DNA of 37,236 nucleotides from Cyanobacteria bacterium GSL.Bin1. Lineage in GTDB: Bacteria > Cyanobacteriota > Cyanobacteriia > Cyanobacteriales > Rubidibacteraceae. Positions within the stretch are counted from its first letter, which is position 1. Every line of letters begins with the position of its first letter. The DNA is taken from assembly GCA_009909085.1 (NCBI GenBank), contig JAAANX010000156.1, positions 1-37,236 of the forward strand, written 5' to 3'. The position numbers were made by a program, and so were the translations under genes. Shown here one piece after another: positions 28,718 to 36,652 of this stretch. The notes beneath the pieces are model-generated. The model was not told where the DNA came from. It saw only the letters and a list, made by a program, of their open reading frames with translations, and ran no database searches.

Positions 28718-28768
28718 TTAATGTAATAGTCATTACGTTAATTATTAGTGTAATGGCTGTTACGTTAA
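28718..28768 (+). promoter_or_regulatory. Two tandem palindromic operators before the TetR gene
   Basis: Copy 1 (28718-28741) has arms TTAATGTAAT and ATTACGTTAA around AGTC, matching at 9 of 10 positions. Copy 2 (28745-28768) has arms TTAGTGTAAT and GTTACGTTAA around GGCT, matching at 7 of 10. The centres are 27 bases apart, and the second ends 10 bases before the tetR ATG. This is the usual layout for autorepression by a TetR dimer. Confidence 0.75.
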
Positions 28769-28778
28769 TTGTCAACCT

Positions 28779-29327
28779 ATGAGCCGCCCCACTGAACCAC
28801 AGAAGAAGCAAGAGCTTTTAGAGCAATGTCTAGCTGCTGCAATTGAAGTAGGAGCATTGGACTCCAGTATCAACGCGATCGCTAAGAGAATAGGGACTAG
28901 CGGACGAATGCTCATTTATCACTTTGGCTCTAAACAGGAATTAGAGCGACAACTCATCGGTCTTTTGGAGACTCGCTTGCGCGAAAAACTATGGTCATTT
29001 CAAGGTGTGTCACTTGAAGGGGTAGATTGCCTAGTAGAAAACCTGCTTGAAATGTGGAGGCATTTGACTTCACCAGAGATGCATGGCTTGCTGAAACTGA
29101 CGATGGAGCTAAATCAACGTGCTATACAAGGCGACTCAGAAACACAAGGTTTCTTAGAACAAGAGAGTCAAAAATGGGTAGATTCTCTATCTAATCTCAC
29201 AAATAACAAAACTACTGCATTATCACTATTTCACTTGTTTCAGGGTGCAATCTTGGACTTTTTGACTACGGGAAACGCACAACGTGGACAGCAAACCATT
29301 AAGGCTTTTACGGAAACTCTGCGGTAG
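28779..29327 (+). CDS. TetR-family transcriptional regulator
   Basis: 182 residues. The N-terminal DNA-binding domain has the TetR helix-turn-helix: LEQCLAAAIEVGALDSSINA, IAKRIGTSGRMLIYHFGSKQ, ELERQLIG. The remaining 120 residues are a helical ligand/dimer domain without recognisable ligand residues. Two palindromes immediately upstream strongly suggest autoregulation. TetR members commonly control an adjacent divergent or downstream gene, but the neighbours are prfC (same strand, upstream) and the urt locus, which has its own NtcA promoter; the regulated target may be only itself or lie elsewhere. The ATG start overlaps no ribosome site of note. Confidence 0.88.
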   Translation: MSRPTEPQKKQELLEQCLAAAIEVGALDSSINAIAKRIGTSGRMLIYHFGSKQELERQLIGLLETRLREKLWSFQGVSLEGVDCLVENLLEMWRHLTSPEMHGLLKLTMELNQRAIQGDSETQGFLEQESQKWVDSLSNLTNNKTTALSLFHLFQGAILDFLTTGNAQRGQQTIKAFTETLR

Positions 29328-29833
29328 CTTCGCCTTAAGGATTGTGTCCCTGTAAACCCAAAGGAAGATCGCGCGATCGCGTATCGTAGCAGTTTTTATT
29401 GTGAATGAACAACCTAACGTATGGTTAAACCAAGTGAGAGGAAAGAGTTCCGAAAAACTGCCGATCAATAGTGAACTACTGCCTGTATGCCTACTCGCTT
29501 CAAAAATGTAACATTAAATACAGTTTGATTGTCAATAAAGTCTTAATGTGATCATCAGCTTTTAAAAAATAGGACTGGGAATGAGTCTGCCATTGCCAGA
29601 AGTCTCTCTAGGAGATTATGTGATGGCAATAAATAATTGGATTATTCAAATGCATAGACATATCATCAATGATTCATGTTTTGTATCAGTAAAAACAACA
29701 AAATAACCTCAAAAGCCATACCCTTTTTTTGAAGAGGAATTAAATAGTTCAATTGTATTCCTTCTATGAAGTAAAAAGGAATACGCCTAATTTTTAAATA
29801 TTTCTTCCAGTGTCTAAATTTTAAGGAAATAAT
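29328..29833 (+). other. 506-base spacer between tetR and urtA
   Basis: It holds the NtcA-type promoter described separately and, after it, an expected leader of about 280 bases to urtA. A HIP1 site lies near 29373. No convincing gene, RNA gene or terminator after tetR was seen. Confidence 0.6.
29508..29549 (+). promoter_or_regulatory. NtcA-activated promoter of urtA
   Basis: A perfect NtcA box GTA-N8-TAC occupies 29508-29521 and is followed, after exactly 22 bases, by the -10 element TAATGT (TA-N3-T) at 29544-29549. This is the canonical class II NtcA promoter architecture, which activates nitrogen-assimilation genes when 2-oxoglutarate is high. Transcription should start near 29556. Confidence 0.8.
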
Positions 29834-31210
29834 ATGACTAGAAAACGCTCATATTTTGATTTGGGTCGTACCTCTCGCCGGAAATTTATTAAATATAGTT
29901 CCCTAGCAGTTGGTGCAGGGGTGGTTGCAGCTTGTACGAGAGGAGGAGGAGGGGGTTCTGCTTCCCAAGAAGATTTAGGAGAAAATCCGATTAAAGTCGG
30001 GGTAATGTATTCTACAACCGGAAGCATTGCGATTGTGGAAAAATCTCTACAAGACTCCACATTTCTCGCCATTGATCAAATTAATAACGGAACAGGTCCT
30101 TGGCAAGATAATGGACCGGGAATTGCCGGTCGCAAAATCCAAAGAATTGTTGTTAACCCTGACTCCAATTGGGACTTGTATAACCAGATGTCAAAGCGTC
30201 TGATTGATGAGGATAATGTCAAATGTGTTTTAGGATGTTATACCTCAGCGAGTCGGAAATCGGTGCTACCGGTATTTGAAGAAAAAGATTCACTTTTGTA
30301 CTATCCCGTTTATTACGAAGGCAATGAGTGCAGTTCTAATGTCTTCTATACCGGTGCTGCCCCTAACCAACAGATTACTGATTCAATTCCCTATTGTTAC
30401 GAAAACTTTGGTCCCAAAGGCTTCTTCATTGGTTCCGATTACATTTACCCGAAAGAAAGCAATCGCATTGCCAAAGCAGAACTGGAAAAATTAGGTGGGC
30501 AAGTGGTTGGTGATGAGTACGCCGCACTCGGCACAACTGAATTTATCACCATTATTAATAAAATCAAACAGGCGCAACCTGACTTTGTTTTAAGTAATTT
30601 GGTTGGGGATAGTATTCCTGCTTTTTACCGTCAATATAAAAACGCTGGCATTAGTGCTGAGGATATTCCCATCATGGCCTATCCCACTACAGAAGAAGAA
30701 ATTCAAGCGATGGGCGCCGAATATGCAGCTGGACATTATACCAGTTTTAACTATTTCCAAAGTGTTGATACGCCTGAAAATGAACAGTTTGTTCGTGAAT
30801 TTAAAGAAATGTTTGGGAACAATCGGGTGACGAATGGGGTAATGGAAGCGGCGTATTTACAAACCTTCTTCATGGCACAAGCCATGAAAGATGTCTTGGA
30901 AGCCGGAGAAGAAATCAACACGAAAACCTTGCGAGAAGCTACCCGTGGGCAAGAATTTAACGCCCCACAAGGGAAAGTAAAAATTGACCCGGATAACTAC
31001 CATACCTATCTCTACGCTCGGATCGGGCGCTGGCAAGAAGATGGACAAGCAGACATTGTCTTCTCTAGCCCGTCTGCAATTAAACCGATTCCTTGGAGTC
31101 AAACCTTATATCCAGGGCGGATGTGTGCTCATCCTAGCCCTGATGATCGCAGTGATCCGACTAAAGAAACGGGTCAAGAAAACTTAGAAACGAAGTATTT
31201 AGAAAGCTAA
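29834..31210 (+). CDS. urtA: Urea/short-amide ABC transporter substrate-binding protein UrtA
   Basis: 458 residues. The N-terminus carries a twin-arginine motif SRRKFIK (14-20), a hydrophobic stretch and a lipobox VAAC with Cys34, so it is probably a Tat-exported lipoprotein; a Gly run follows. The binding domain begins NPIKVGVMYSTTGSIAIVEK, then PVYYEGNECSSNVFYTGAAPNQQ and TYLYARIGRWQ, a close match to UrtA/FmdD proteins that bind urea or short amides. It is first of the five urt genes under the NtcA promoter. A hairpin follows in the gap to urtB. Formamidase downstream makes formamide a candidate ligand besides urea. Confidence 0.92.
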   Translation: MTRKRSYFDLGRTSRRKFIKYSSLAVGAGVVAACTRGGGGGSASQEDLGENPIKVGVMYSTTGSIAIVEKSLQDSTFLAIDQINNGTGPWQDNGPGIAGRKIQRIVVNPDSNWDLYNQMSKRLIDEDNVKCVLGCYTSASRKSVLPVFEEKDSLLYYPVYYEGNECSSNVFYTGAAPNQQITDSIPYCYENFGPKGFFIGSDYIYPKESNRIAKAELEKLGGQVVGDEYAALGTTEFITIINKIKQAQPDFVLSNLVGDSIPAFYRQYKNAGISAEDIPIMAYPTTEEEIQAMGAEYAAGHYTSFNYFQSVDTPENEQFVREFKEMFGNNRVTNGVMEAAYLQTFFMAQAMKDVLEAGEEINTKTLREATRGQEFNAPQGKVKIDPDNYHTYLYARIGRWQEDGQADIVFSSPSAIKPIPWSQTLYPGRMCAHPSPDDRSDPTKETGQENLETKYLES

Positions 31211-31297: not shown

Positions 31298-32245
31298 TTG
31301 CTAAACCAACTGGCATTGACATATATCTTGGCGCAAGAGAATTCAGGCTTTGAGTTGATTCCTTTACTTAATCAGTTGATTAGCGGGGTGGGAATTGTTG
31401 GGATCTTATTATTGACGGCATTAGGACTTGCCATCACTTTTGGCGTCATGGGAATTATTAATTTGGCCCATGGCGAATTCATTATGCTGGGGGCTTATAC
31501 CACTTTCCTCATGCAAGACTTATTTCAGATGGATTTATTGTTAACCATTCCGTTTGCCTTTGTGGTGACAGCAGCTATTGGCGGATTAATGGAGTTAACG
31601 ATTATTCGTCGTCTTCACGGTCGTCCTTTGGAAACTTTATTGGCAACGTGGGGATTAAGCATTGTCCTCCGTGGCGTGATTAAGCTCATTTTTACCGCCC
31701 AGTTGAAGTATGTGCGAGCCCCCTCCTATATATCTGGCAGCTTAACCGTGCTTACGGATGGTGCAGGGGTACCGACCGTTTCCATCTCCTACTATCGTCT
31801 TTTGATTATTGGCATCGCGATCGCGCTGCTTCTCCTCACGGCTTATCTGCTCTACGGCACGGGTTTAGGACGACAAATGCGCGCGGTGACTCAAAATCGC
31901 GATATGGCAAAATGCCTCGGCATCAACACTAACTTAGTGGATATGGCAACCTTTGCCTATGGCTGTGGCTTAGCCGGAATTGCGGGAACTGTCATTTCTG
32001 CGATTAAAACGGTTTCCCCGCCCATGGGTCAAGATTACTTGGTGGATGCTTGGATGGTAGTTGTTACCGGCGGAGTCGATAAACTGATTGGGACCTTAGC
32101 CGGTGCCTTTGTCATTGGCGAATCCAACGCCGCGATCGCGTTTTTCCTCAATGATCCCGTTGCTCGGGTGATTGTCCTGACTGCCGTCATCATTATTATC
32201 CGCTACCGCCCAGAAGGACTCTTCACTGTACAGAAACGCGGTTAA
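31298..32245 (+). CDS. urtB: Urea ABC transporter permease UrtB
   Basis: 315 residues of LivH type with about eight membrane helices. Landmarks are GLAITFGVMGIINLAHGEFIMLGAY, RGVIKLIFTAQLKYVRAPSY, TGLGRQMRAVTQNRDMAKCLGIN and VDAWMVVVTGGVDKLIGTLAGA; the latter region carries the EAA-like coupling segment. The start is TTG at 31298, eight bases after AAGGAG (31284-31289). An ATG at 31290 opens only four codons (ATG AAC TAT TGC TAA) in another frame. It is the first of two permease subunits. Confidence 0.92.
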   Translation: MLNQLALTYILAQENSGFELIPLLNQLISGVGIVGILLLTALGLAITFGVMGIINLAHGEFIMLGAYTTFLMQDLFQMDLLLTIPFAFVVTAAIGGLMELTIIRRLHGRPLETLLATWGLSIVLRGVIKLIFTAQLKYVRAPSYISGSLTVLTDGAGVPTVSISYYRLLIIGIAIALLLLTAYLLYGTGLGRQMRAVTQNRDMAKCLGINTNLVDMATFAYGCGLAGIAGTVISAIKTVSPPMGQDYLVDAWMVVVTGGVDKLIGTLAGAFVIGESNAAIAFFLNDPVARVIVLTAVIIIIRYRPEGLFTVQKRG

Positions 32246-32281: not shown

Positions 32282-33475
32282 ATGACACAAGTACTTCCTG
32301 GCGTTCAACAACCTACATTTCCCCGTAAACTTGCGCTAGTTGTGGGAATCGGTTTTCTTCTCTTTGCTATTTTTCCCTTCCTTGCGGGTAACTTTCAAAC
32401 GTCCTTAATGGCAAAACTTCTGCTGTTTTCGGCTCTTGCCATTTCGCTTGATCTCGTTTGGGGCTTTACCGGTATCCTTAGTTTTGCCCAAGGGGTCTTC
32501 TTTACCCTGGGTGGCTATGCCATGGCGTATTACCTAAAACTCAATCTTTCCGCAGACGCTAATACTTATGGAGTTGCTCTCCCTGACTTTATGGTTTGGA
32601 ATGGCTTAGAACAACTCCCTTGGTTTATTGCCCCCCTGCAATACTTTCCCCTGGCGATGATTGCCATGGTCTTAATCCCGGCTGGCTTTGCTTATATTAT
32701 TGGTTGGTTTATTTTTCATTCTCGGGTCAGTGGGGTTTATATCACCATTATTACCCTTGCCATCTCTTCAGCGCTGACCACTTTCTTTGTCAGTCAACAA
32801 GCCTATACGGGCGGAACCAATGGCATTACCGATGTTGCGCCCTTAAGTTTATTCGGAGCAGAAATTCCTCTCATTGGCTTGTATTGGATGAGTTTAGTCT
32901 TTACCACTGCAGTTCTCATTGGAACTTGGTGGCTAACGCAATCCAACTTTGGTCTCATTCTCCGTTCCATTAAAGAAAATGAGCGTCGTATTGCCTTTTT
33001 GGGCTATGACATTGCCAGCTACAAAATTTTCATCTGGACCTTGTCTGCCGGAATTGCCGGGATTGCAGGCGGGTTATTTGTTGCGCTCAATCAATTTATT
33101 TCTCCGGTTTATCTTGCCGTTGCCTTTGGGACACAAGTTGTCATTTGGGTGGCAATTGGCGGAAGAGGAACACTCATTGGTCCTTTTGCTGCTGCCCTTA
33201 TTCTCGGACAAGTCCAGAACTATGCAGAACAAGTGACCCAAGACTGGCAACTGATCATTGGCGTTTTACTGTTAGTTGTTGTGTTATTTATTCCCAACGG
33301 CTTGATGAGCTTAGTTCCCAAAACGCTTAATTTCAGCCAAGGGACAACCAAAACTGCTTCTCCTGATTCTTCGGCTGGTTATCTCCAAGCCCAACTCATC
33401 GATTGGATAACTCCGTTACAGAACTTAGCAAAAGCAAGCCTGAAAATTTTACGCAAGAACCGTTCCCGTCGTTAA
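32282..33475 (+). CDS. urtC: Urea ABC transporter permease UrtC
   Basis: 397 residues of LivM type with about ten membrane helices. Typical pieces are SLDLVWGFTGILSFAQGVFFTLGGYAMAYYL, YTGGTNGITDVAPLSLFG, RSIKENERRIAFLGYDIASYK (the cytoplasmic coupling loop) and VAIGGRGTLIGPFAAALILG. A basic 40-residue tail extends past the last helix. It pairs with UrtB in the membrane. A 36-base gap from urtB holds two heptamer-like GTCATCA/GTCGTTC units; a 12-base gap leads to urtD. Confidence 0.92.
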   Translation: MTQVLPGVQQPTFPRKLALVVGIGFLLFAIFPFLAGNFQTSLMAKLLLFSALAISLDLVWGFTGILSFAQGVFFTLGGYAMAYYLKLNLSADANTYGVALPDFMVWNGLEQLPWFIAPLQYFPLAMIAMVLIPAGFAYIIGWFIFHSRVSGVYITIITLAISSALTTFFVSQQAYTGGTNGITDVAPLSLFGAEIPLIGLYWMSLVFTTAVLIGTWWLTQSNFGLILRSIKENERRIAFLGYDIASYKIFIWTLSAGIAGIAGGLFVALNQFISPVYLAVAFGTQVVIWVAIGGRGTLIGPFAAALILGQVQNYAEQVTQDWQLIIGVLLLVVVLFIPNGLMSLVPKTLNFSQGTTKTASPDSSAGYLQAQLIDWITPLQNLAKASLKILRKNRSRR

Positions 33476-33487
33476 GGACTCACTCTG

Positions 33488-34243
33488 ATGAATAACATTC
33501 TTTCTGTTAAAGATTTACAAGTTGAATTTTTTGGCTTTAAAGCCCTCAAAGGGGTTAATTTAGAGGTGGCTGACCGCGAGATTGTCACAATTATCGGTCC
33601 CAATGGGGCTGGAAAAAGTACCCTCCTTGATGCCATTGTCGGTAAATCTCCGGTTGCTGGTGGTCAGGTCAGTTACCAAGGAAAAAATATTACCAATCAT
33701 CTTCCTCATGAAATCGCCCGGATGGGAATTGGTCGCAAATTCCAAAATCCCAACGTTTACAATGAATTAACCGTTTTTGAGAATCTTTTATTGGCACTCA
33801 AAGGGTCTCACGGCATTTTTGCGTCTATCACGTCTAAATTAACCCGCATGAAGCGCCATAAAATCACCTCGGTTCTCGAACGAATTGGCCTTATGGAGTA
33901 TGCCGGAACCAAAGTGTCTTCTCTCTCTCATGGACAAAAACAGTGGGTAGAAATTGGCATGGTTCTAGCCCAAGATCCGGCTGTGGTTTTACTCGATGAA
34001 CCCACTGCTGGGATGACCCCAGAAGAAACCCATGCTACTGGAGAAATTATTAAAGCAATGTCTGAATTTCATGCGGTGGTCGTTATTGAGCATGACATGG
34101 AATTTGTGAAACAAATTGCACAGCGCATTGTGGTCCTTCACCAAGGACAAACCTTAGCCGAAGGAAGCGTAGAAGAAGTACAAAATAATCCCAGAGTTGT
34201 GGAGGTTTATCTCGGTCGTGAAAAAATCGATGTCGCTGCTTGA
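33488..34243 (+). CDS. urtD: Urea ABC transporter ATPase UrtD
   Basis: 251 residues of LivG type. Walker A is GPNGAGKST (about 37-45), the signature is SLSHGQKQWVEIGM, Walker B is AVVLLDEPTAGMTPEE and the switch His is in VVVIEHDMEFVK. EAIGRKFQN-type wording (MGIGRKFQNPNVYNEL) is characteristic of UrtD. It hydrolyses ATP with UrtE to drive UrtBC. It overlaps urtE by 14 bases. Confidence 0.94.
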   Translation: MNNILSVKDLQVEFFGFKALKGVNLEVADREIVTIIGPNGAGKSTLLDAIVGKSPVAGGQVSYQGKNITNHLPHEIARMGIGRKFQNPNVYNELTVFENLLLALKGSHGIFASITSKLTRMKRHKITSVLERIGLMEYAGTKVSSLSHGQKQWVEIGMVLAQDPAVVLLDEPTAGMTPEETHATGEIIKAMSEFHAVVVIEHDMEFVKQIAQRIVVLHQGQTLAEGSVEEVQNNPRVVEVYLGREKIDVAA

Positions 34244-34931
34244 ACTGTCTAATGTTACCGCAGGCTATGGACAAACCCCAGTTTTGTTTGATATATCCAT
34301 GACGGTAAACAAAGGGGACTTAGTTTGCTTACTGGGGCGAAATGGCGTAGGAAAAACCACTCTTTTGCGCAGTATTATTGGCTTAAATACTCTTAGCAAA
34401 GGGAGCATGATTTTTGATGCTGATGATATTAGCAAAACGCCCACATATAAGAGAGCGCAATATGGGATTGCTTATATTCCTCAAGGACGGGAAATTATCC
34501 CCTATTTATCGGTTTTAGATAATCTGAAACTGGGTTTTGCTGCCAGTGGTGCGAAAAGCAAAAAAATTCCGGAAGAAATTTTTGAATTCTTCCCGATGTT
34601 AAAAGAACATTTATCCCGTCAGGGTGGCTTACTGAGCGGCGGACAACAACAACAACTGGCGATTGCCAGAGGGTTAATGTGTAATCCGAAACTAATGCTA
34701 TTAGATGAACCAACTGAGGGCATTCAACCTTCAATTGTGCAAGAAATTGAAGAGACACTAAAACGAATCAATAAAGAAAAAGGAATTACTGTTTTAGTGG
34801 TTGAACAAAAAATTGACTTTGCGCGCCAACTGGCAAGAAAGTTTTTTATTATGGATAAAGGGGCAATTGTTGCCCGAGGACAAACAGAAGACTTAACGGA
34901 TTCTGTGGTGCATCAATATTTGGCTGTTTAA
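34230..34931 (+). CDS. urtE: Urea ABC transporter ATPase UrtE
   Basis: 233 residues of LivF type. Walker A is GRNGVGKTT, the Q-loop region GIAYIPQGREIIPYLSV, signature LSGGQQQQLAIARGLM, Walker B LMLLDEPTEGIQPS and VVEQKIDFARQLA. The IPQGREIIP phrase is typical of UrtE. The start ATG at 34230 lies inside the urtD 3' end, giving MSLLELSNVTAGYG; an upstream in-frame ATG at 34197 would add residues foreign to the family. It is the last gene before a terminator-like hairpin. Confidence 0.94.
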   Translation: MSLLELSNVTAGYGQTPVLFDISMTVNKGDLVCLLGRNGVGKTTLLRSIIGLNTLSKGSMIFDADDISKTPTYKRAQYGIAYIPQGREIIPYLSVLDNLKLGFAASGAKSKKIPEEIFEFFPMLKEHLSRQGGLLSGGQQQQLAIARGLMCNPKLMLLDEPTEGIQPSIVQEIEETLKRINKEKGITVLVVEQKIDFARQLARKFFIMDKGAIVARGQTEDLTDSVVHQYLAV

Positions 34932-35167: not shown

Positions 35168-36343
35168 GTGCCAGAAACACTTTTTAAGGTAGATTTAACC
35201 AAACCCATGCGTGATCAGGAAATGCCTGGACATAATCGGTGGCATCCTGATATTCCGCCTGTTGCTTCAGTCAAACCTGGGTCGGTTTTTCGCATTGAAT
35301 GTAAAGATTGGACCGATGGACAAATTAAAAATGATGATAACCCCAATGATATTCGCGATGTTGACTTGAGTGTGGTTCATGTTCTCAGTGGACCGATTGA
35401 AGTGGAAGGGGCAAAACCGGGGGATATCTTAGTGGTTGACATTCTGGATATCGGGGCATTACCAGGTGACGAATGGGGATTTACCGGGATTTTTGCCAAA
35501 GAAAATGGTGGGGGCTTTCTAACGGAACATTTTCCCAAAGCCAATAAAGCGATTTGGGATTTTCAAGGCATTTATACGCAATCCCGACATATTCCTGGTG
35601 TCCGCTTTGCTGGGATTACTCACCCCGGTTTAATTGGCTGTGCGCCATCTCATGAGTTATTGGCGAAGTGGAATAAACGGGAACGGGAGTTAGTCTCGAG
35701 TGATCCCAATCGTGTGCCACCGTTAGCGACGTTACCGAATCCAGAAAATGCCGTTTTAGGCACCTTAAAAGGGTCCGCGTTTGAAGAAGCAGCAGCAGAA
35801 GCAGCGCGAACCGTTCCGCCACGGGAACATGGCGGGAACTGCGATATTAAGAACTTATCGCGCGGATCAAAAATTTATTTCCCCGTGTATGTAGATGGGG
35901 CAAAACTTTCTATGGGAGATATTCACTTCTCCCAAGGGGATGGGGAGATTACCTTCTGCGGCGCGATCGAGATGTCAGGTTATATCGACCTCCATGTGGA
36001 TATTATCAAAGGGGGTGTGGATAAATATGGGATGGTGAACCCCATCTTTAAACCGGGTCCCGTTGAACCTCGTTATTCAGAATATCTCGTCTTTGAAGGC
36101 ATTTCCGTCGATGAATTTGAAGGGAAACAATATTATATGGATGCCCACATTGCTTACCGACGCGCTTGTTTAAATGCCATTGAATATCTGAAAAAGTTTG
36201 GCTTCACCGGGGAACAGGCTTATCTCTTACTCAGTTGTGCGCCCGTAGAAGGTCGTGTTAGTGGAATTGTAGATATTCCGAATGTCTGCTGTACCGTTGC
36301 CATTCCCACCGAGATTTTTGATCAAGATATTGTACCAGTATAG
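35168..36343 (+). CDS. fmdA: Formamidase FmdA (acetamidase/formamidase family)
   Basis: 391 residues, typical length. Landmarks are FKVDLTKPMRDQEMPGHNRWHP, the metal/substrate-site VKPGSVFRIECKDWTDGQIKN, VHVLSGPIEVEGAKPGDILV, PGVRFAGITHPGLIGCAPS, PPREHGGNCDIKNLSRGSKI, MGDIHFSQGDGEITFCGAIE and LLLSCAPVEGRVSGIVDIPN. This is the formamidase branch (EC 3.5.1.49), which hydrolyses formamide to formate and ammonium. The start is GTG at 35168, nine bases after GGAG (35155-35158). It follows the urt genes after a 236-base gap with a terminator, so it probably has its own promoter; no perfect NtcA box lies in that gap. Confidence 0.93.
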   Translation: MPETLFKVDLTKPMRDQEMPGHNRWHPDIPPVASVKPGSVFRIECKDWTDGQIKNDDNPNDIRDVDLSVVHVLSGPIEVEGAKPGDILVVDILDIGALPGDEWGFTGIFAKENGGGFLTEHFPKANKAIWDFQGIYTQSRHIPGVRFAGITHPGLIGCAPSHELLAKWNKRERELVSSDPNRVPPLATLPNPENAVLGTLKGSAFEEAAAEAARTVPPREHGGNCDIKNLSRGSKIYFPVYVDGAKLSMGDIHFSQGDGEITFCGAIEMSGYIDLHVDIIKGGVDKYGMVNPIFKPGPVEPRYSEYLVFEGISVDEFEGKQYYMDAHIAYRRACLNAIEYLKKFGFTGEQAYLLLSCAPVEGRVSGIVDIPNVCCTVAIPTEIFDQDIVPV

Positions 36344-36358
36344 AGGAGATGAAACTGA

Positions 36359-36652
36359 ATGCCGTTATATGAGTTTGAATGTGAGACTTGCGGTGTTTTT
36401 GAAGCGTGGCGTACCATTGCGCTTCGAGATTCTGCCCCGAATTGTCCCACTTGTGATGGGAAAAGCCAACGCATTTTTTCGGTTCCCCACTTTAATCTCA
36501 GTTCTGGTGGCGCTTTCTTGAAAGCCAGACAAACCAGTGAACCGAAATTAGAAAAACGAGAGAAAGAACCCTCGCAACCCAGCTACCAAAGCCATAAGCG
36601 CGTAGAGCTTGGCTCGTGTCGAAGACATCGGCCTTGGATGATTGGTCATTAG
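36359..36652 (+). CDS. fmdB: FmdB-family zinc-ribbon protein
   Basis: 97 residues. MPLYEFECETCG and APNCPTCDG supply four cysteines (8, 11, 29, 32), a zinc ribbon typical of FmdB. A polar Lys/Glu/Ser linker follows, ending RRHRPWMIGH. FmdB was first named as a regulator of formamidase in Methylophilus; the family is widespread and may be a regulator or accessory factor. It starts 15 bases after fmdA, so co-transcription is likely. The last codons read into a GTCATTA heptamer-like sequence. Confidence 0.85.
   Translation: MPLYEFECETCGVFEAWRTIALRDSAPNCPTCDGKSQRIFSVPHFNLSSGGAFLKARQTSEPKLEKREKEPSQPSYQSHKRVELGSCRRHRPWMIGH

Follow-up and report, generated by a model that had tools for sequence, protein, structure and literature searches.

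A predicted NtcA-type promoter in front of a Urt-like, formamidase-linked transporter operon of a cyanobacterium

Genes of the locus

The window considered here, the whole 37,236-nucleotide stretch of Cyanobacteria bacterium GSL.Bin1 contig JAAANX010000156.1, encodes on its forward strand a five-part transporter of the Urt type followed by a formamidase. The first gene (29834-31210) encodes a urtA-like substrate-binding protein of an amidase-linked clade and is followed by genes for a urtB-like permease (31298-32245; TIGR03409, 337.7 bits, cut-off 250.3), a urtC-like permease (32282-33475; TIGR03408, 310.5 bits, cut-off 296.2), a urtD-like ATPase (33488-34243; TIGR03411, 325.7 bits, cut-off 304.1) and a urtE-like ATPase (34197-34931; TIGR03410, 319.9 bits, cut-off 285.8). 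Formamidase FmdA (35168-36343; NF045496, 712.1 bits, cut-off 500; PF03069) is encoded 236 bases past urtE, and next to it a zinc-ribbon protein of the FmdB family (36359-36652; TIGR02605, 56.7 bits, cut-off 31.3).

The order and families of the five transporter genes are those of the high-affinity urea permease UrtABCDE (PMC3098086, in the excerpts available). Unlike that system, the locus has amidase neighbours, and its binding protein has five of nine pocket residues replaced and reaches 420.5-421.1 bits with the curated UrtA model TIGR03407, below the cut-off of 492.75. The matches listed for 291 genomes of the class form two groups, one of 40 (the window included) with at least 74% identity and one whose members have no more than 50%. 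In a genome of the same genus, FmdA is found approximately 5 kb downstream of the urtA-like gene on the same strand; this match (L144, G150:C1:1883148-1884326) contains one internal stop codon.

A class II NtcA promoter layout before the urtA-like gene

The 506-base intergenic region that precedes the urtA-like gene (29328-29833) contains, on the forward strand, the NtcA box GTAACATTAAATAC (29508-29521), which matches GTAN8TAC. A 22-base spacer (29522-29543) separates the box from TAATGT (29544-29549, forward strand), a -10 element of the form TAN3T. The canonical spacing between box and TAN3T ranges from 20 to 24 bases. Class II NtcA promoters (urtA, nirA, ntcB, glnA) have the same GTAN8TAC, TAN3T and spacing, likewise serve nitrogen acquisition, and are defined by the TAN3T -10 element and a box centred about 41.5 bases before the start (PMC3898017, excerpts); addition of 41.5 to the box centre at 29514.5 gives a predicted transcription start at 29556 on the forward strand. 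A simple consensus scan of 29328-29833 found no sigma-70-like site on the forward strand. The genome encodes NtcA itself (TIGR03697, 365.2 bits against a curated cut-off of 244.95), together with six weaker CRP-family matches.

Dinucleotide shuffling of the intergenic region (3000 shuffles of 29328-29833, forward strand) produced the box in 6.3% of cases, the full layout with a spacing of 20-24 in 0.77%, and the layout with a spacing of 22 in 0.17%. Across the 4.8-Mb genome (210 contigs), with the same pattern read backwards as control, the exact N22 layout has 26 copies versus 15 and the N23 layout 16 versus 47, so that the layout alone is not specific, and we rejected the genome-wide count as too weak a proof. 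Seventeen of the 26 N22 sites overlap an open frame of at least 120 codons and nine do not, under a rule that uses the longest frame, so that some of the 17 may be genuine upstream sites. The proteins downstream of nine other sites in the genome (ten proteins) were scanned: a NarK-family nitrate/nitrite transporter (397.9 bits, cut-off 311.7) lies behind one of them, cyanase (210.1 bits, cut-off 113.3) and then a formate/nitrite-type transporter behind another, and no clear nitrogen gene follows the other seven. The cyanase site (L035, G000:C194:69781-69822) has the full layout and a predicted leader of 23 bases.

The window contains seven copies of GTAN8TAC by itself, where 2.95 would be expected. 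Two of the seven form a palindrome pair, GTAATAGTCATTAC and GTAATGGCTGTTAC (28723-28763), which are spaced 27 bases from each other and immediately precede a TetR-type gene (28779-29327). The boxes at 28723 and 28750 were rejected as NtcA sites because they are a symmetric pair abutting this gene; they are probably its operators, mimicking the NtcA pattern. The TetR-type gene was in turn rejected as regulator of the operon, since the other 83 loci surveyed, many of which include 1.5 kb or less of upstream sequence, yielded no relative at E 1e-3. A further GTAN8TAC, at 29771-29784, was discarded as a promoter box because no TAN3T follows within 18-26 bases and because it overlaps a hairpin (29755-29784).

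Conservation of the layout

From 84 loci of urtA-like relatives, of which one (L085) was dropped since its start lies outside the fetched DNA, 60 distinct upstreams were obtained by merging loci whose final 200 bases before the gene are the same. GTAN8TAC occurs at most 700 bases from the start in 39 of the 60, some of these boxes lying within, or facing, an adjoining fmdA. The full layout is present in 31 upstreams, the window included, and absent from 29. Leaving out the window, the layout precedes the gene in 30 of 59 loci, with a spacing of exactly 22 in 26; every other single spacing from 8 to 39 was found in 0-4 of the 59, other box widths in 0-5 (five for N5), and seven other palindromes, used as control, in 0-2. 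For the distinct named loci, the density of the N22 layout in these upstreams (23 per 36,778 strand-bases) exceeds that in the remaining sequence (22 per 1,416,266) by a factor of 40. As the loci are related, layout counts are not independent; clustering at 85% protein identity gives 11 clusters, eight with at least one layout, and at 90% identity the layout is present in 17 of 28 clusters.

The position of the layout was also followed relative to fmdA. Eleven loci, six of them named Pseudanabaena, have the order fmdA-fmdB-urtA, and in nine of these the layout precedes neither gene; it precedes fmdA in L068 and urtA in L081. Among the 28 fmdA-bearing loci, five have the layout before fmdA, with the reservations that in L046, one of the five, a single box read on either strand accounts for both the fmdA-side and the urtA-side layout, and that L062 offers only one base upstream of fmdA to scan. 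In seven loci fmdA is encoded upstream in the opposite orientation; GTAN8TAC precedes it in six of these, and in four of the six (L040, L043, L051 and L058) a TAN3T follows at 25 bases, slightly beyond the canonical spacing.

Canonical urtA promoters provided an independent matrix. Two sets of 20 canonical urtA genes, with 15 genomes common to both, were hand-picked and thus non-random among the matches listed; in 20 upstreams the box is present in 17 and the layout in 13. These 13 differ from the window's site in spacing (23 in 10 of the 13, versus 22 here and at most sites of the clade) and in position (box at -80 to -110 in the 13, versus -326 here). In a scan of both strands of the window, a box plus -10 matrix trained on the 13 gives its highest score, 23.7 bits, to the site at 29508; the intergenic region was shuffled 1000 times without reaching this score (best 21.5). 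At a cut-off of 19.5 bits, picked after the scores were known, 28 of the 60 upstreams pass, and the best of 1200 upstream shuffles scores 19.43; a cut-off of 10 bits proved useless, as the best of 20 shuffles reached it in 42 of the 60 loci.

A box matching by chance, or serving another CRP-family regulator, with a different promoter driving the operon, would be in keeping with the modest genome-wide excess of the layout over its control and with the six weaker CRP-family matches. The recurrence of box and spacing across species, the lack of a sigma-70-like forward-strand site in the simple consensus scan of 29328-29833 and the choice of 29508 by the matrix argue against this explanation, which we regard as very improbable. 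The promoter call is convincing because of position and cross-species conservation, and not because of the layout alone. The sequence-only reading had proposed an NtcA promoter composed of GTA-N8-TAC, 22 bases and TAATGT. Its letters and coordinates are exact, and the proposal, which concerns a predicted site, has gained from the conservation of the layout across relatives, the similarity to canonical urtA promoters and the presence of NtcA in the genome. The site at 29508 is most likely a genuine NtcA-type switch that has been conserved in evolution, and a predicted NtcA-activated class II promoter upstream of the urtA-like gene is well supported.

The predicted leader

From the predicted start, the untranslated leader would span 29556-29833 on the forward strand, a length of 278 nt ahead of the ATG at 29834. 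The length of about 280 bases given in the sequence-only reading is right as arithmetic, and it is not a conserved feature: the predicted leaders of the 31 loci with the layout span 35-454 nt (median 160), and that of the same-genus genome 77 nt. Leader length is not conserved. Apart from a 30-base stretch (29677-29706) common to L056 (26/30) and weakly to L087 (21/30), there is little leader conservation. Two short open frames are present in the leader, 29581-29706 (41 codons) and 29676-29732 (18 codons), and the stretch at 29677-29706 overlaps the possible 18-codon frame in otherwise diverged leaders. The leader also contains a 9-bp inverted repeat, GTATTCCTT/AAGGAATAC (29755-29784, forward strand), and its predicted fold is only mildly better than those of shuffled sequences (z -2.22; 2 of 100 fold as well).

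Apart from a tRNA, nothing in the window matches an Rfam family at gathering score. The intergenic region has five sub-threshold Rfam matches (E 0.42-4.6), and the loci of eight relatives a single match, over a urease alpha gene. The leader, in which no Rfam family reaches gathering score, was accordingly rejected as a known RNA such as a riboswitch, and also as a multi-copy element, its sole match in the genome being itself.

The ligand pocket of the binding protein

Nine residues of Prochlorococcus UrtA contact urea: W120, S122, Y141, Q144, E146, Y190, F192, N246 and S274 (PMC10392092, excerpts). According to the same excerpts, the W120 mutant does not bind urea, mutations of S122, Q144, Y190 and N246 significantly lower or abolish binding, the Y141, E146 and S274 mutants are merely weaker, and F192 is of little importance. 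We mapped these positions via an alignment to 7s6f, with a 25-residue offset derived by hand, in 58 of the 60 clade proteins, those of 400 aa or fewer being excluded. Four residues (S138, Y157, E162 and Y203) are unchanged in 58/58 clade members. The other five are replaced in 58/58 (W120 by Y136, Q144 by Y160, F192 by Y205, N246 by V257 and S274 by P284), so that the full urea pocket of UrtA is not found; canonical proteins have W, Q, F, N and S at these positions in 20/20.

The amide sensor AmiC, from the amidase operon of Pseudomonas aeruginosa (PDB 1pea), is related by sequence and carries Y, P, Y, V and T where the five replacements occur. It shares Y, Y and V with the window protein (Y136, Y205 and V257, 3/5) and differs from it in the Pro and Thr at the other two. 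Over the whole length, the window protein is more distant from AmiC (189.3 bits) than from urea-binding proteins (302-304 bits) or 8tg1 (362.6 bits). AmiC is a regulator and not a transporter subunit. The pocket residues of the clade point tentatively to an amide ligand.

Amidase and urease neighbours

The neighbourhood was surveyed in 53 distinct named loci, many shortened by contig ends. They contain fmdA in 28 cases, the aliphatic amidase gene amiE in 17 (one match at only 55% identity) and urease alpha in 14; fmdA or amiE is present in 34, including all 14 with urease alpha. For the 23 loci with approximately 8 kb on both sides, the counts are 17 for fmdA or amiE, nine for urease alpha and six for none of the three. 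Twenty hand-picked canonical urtA loci with similar flanks have fmdA or amiE in 0/20 and urease alpha in 2/20. Family checks passed their cut-offs for amiE in L041 and L062, and for urease alpha in L041 and L079. Seven loci (L037, L041, L045, L053, L055, L059 and L087) carry an aliphatic amidase together with a divergent urease alpha upstream on the opposite strand; this urease alpha shares approximately 59-62% identity with the one encoded in the window's genome, and L037 has two urease alpha matches. In the window's genome, a partial urease alpha match lies in a 155-residue frame (L092, G000:C200:18257-18691) approximately 3 kb past the full ureC.

The Urt affiliation of all five transporter genes, four of them above the family cut-offs, would also fit a true urea transporter behind the NtcA promoter, whose altered pocket binds urea and for which FmdA is a passenger or takes related compounds. 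The genome has urease alpha and no other UrtA over the cut-off, and urease alpha lies near 14 of the 53 named loci. Against this stand the score of the binding protein, below the UrtA cut-off, and the replacement of W120, Q144 and N246, whose mutation abolishes or significantly lowers urea binding in Prochlorococcus UrtA (PMC10392092, excerpts), by Y, Y and V in 58/58 members. The urease-alpha loci all have fmdA or amiE as well (14/14), and both clades coexist in some genomes (e.g. G222, G195, G115 and G214). We consider a dedicated urea transporter unlikely.

Somewhat less doubtful, and overlapping with the explanation that we prefer, is a broad NtcA-controlled transporter of urea and short-chain amides that feeds both urease and amidases. 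The mixture of fmdA, amiE and ureC (28, 17 and 14 of 53) agrees with such breadth, as does the warning in PMC3098086 (excerpts) that signatures of Urt-like permeases may also cover related amides; the five clade-wide pocket changes speak against it, and we hold it as a tentative possibility. Urea is retained as a possible substrate mainly because urease neighbours the clade loci.

The more probable explanation is that the urea-like transporter operon imports small amides, e.g. formamide, for the adjoining formamidase. The sequence-only reading had called the first gene urtA and the system a urea/amide transporter. That hedge was wise, the evidence leaning to amide with urea kept possible by the urease neighbours. 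That the gene is urtA in the sense of urea uptake is not supported: the UrtA cut-off is missed, the urea pocket is altered clade-wide, and FmdA and an FmdB-type protein are encoded downstream. The label urtA is probably wrong for this gene, and the name should be changed to that of a component of an amidase-linked, probably amide-specific Urt-type transporter.

Proposed pathway and implications

Taking the evidence together, we favour, with a probability of about 0.7, an NtcA-activated class II promoter that drives an operon for the uptake and probably the hydrolysis of small amides. By the known mechanism of such promoters, NtcA with 2-oxoglutarate would bind 29508-29521 when nitrogen is short and recruit RNA polymerase to the -10 element at 29544, and transcription would begin near 29556. 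The transcript would encode the Urt-type ABC importer in its five parts; by sequence, the pocket of the binding protein is no longer of the urea type and is similar to one for amides, a likeness from which the ligand is presumed. As its family suggests, FmdA would then hydrolyse the amide taken up, most likely formamide or acetamide, to ammonium and a carboxylate; fmdA and fmdB are possibly, though not necessarily, on the same transcript.

A comparable arrangement is the Bradyrhizobium japonicum cluster blr0968-blr0973, likewise a five-gene Urt-like cluster beside an acetamidase/formamidase, and this formamidase-linked operon was read as an amide transporter (PMC3098086, excerpts). It belongs to another phylum, and the likeness is one of description. 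In Arthrospira PCC 8005, FmdA rises under nitrogen limitation (PMC4509649, excerpts) and fmdA is a nitrogen route (PMC8400943, excerpts). NtcA control of urtA is already known (PMC3898017 and PMC6737895, excerpts), and in the partial, mainly non-subscription literature covered we came across no account of NtcA controlling an amide transporter or fmdA in cyanobacteria. The promoter is of a known kind; the operon behind it is less appreciated. As to regulation in the rhizobial system, Bradyrhizobium japonicum is not known to have NtcA.

For cyanobacteria as a whole, it seems rather likely that a second widespread Urt-type clade, taken by its family for urea transport, is a short-chain amide importer with an AmiC-like pocket and formamidase or aliphatic amidase partners, and a direct, conserved member of the NtcA regulon with a promoter habit of its own (spacing of 22, often a long and variable leader). 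The five invariant pocket changes make the question of the substrate directly testable. If the proposal is true, the master nitrogen regulator would control amide scavenging, and not only urea uptake, in many cyanobacteria, and environmental surveys with urtA as a marker should leave genes of the amidase-linked clade out of their urea transporter counts.
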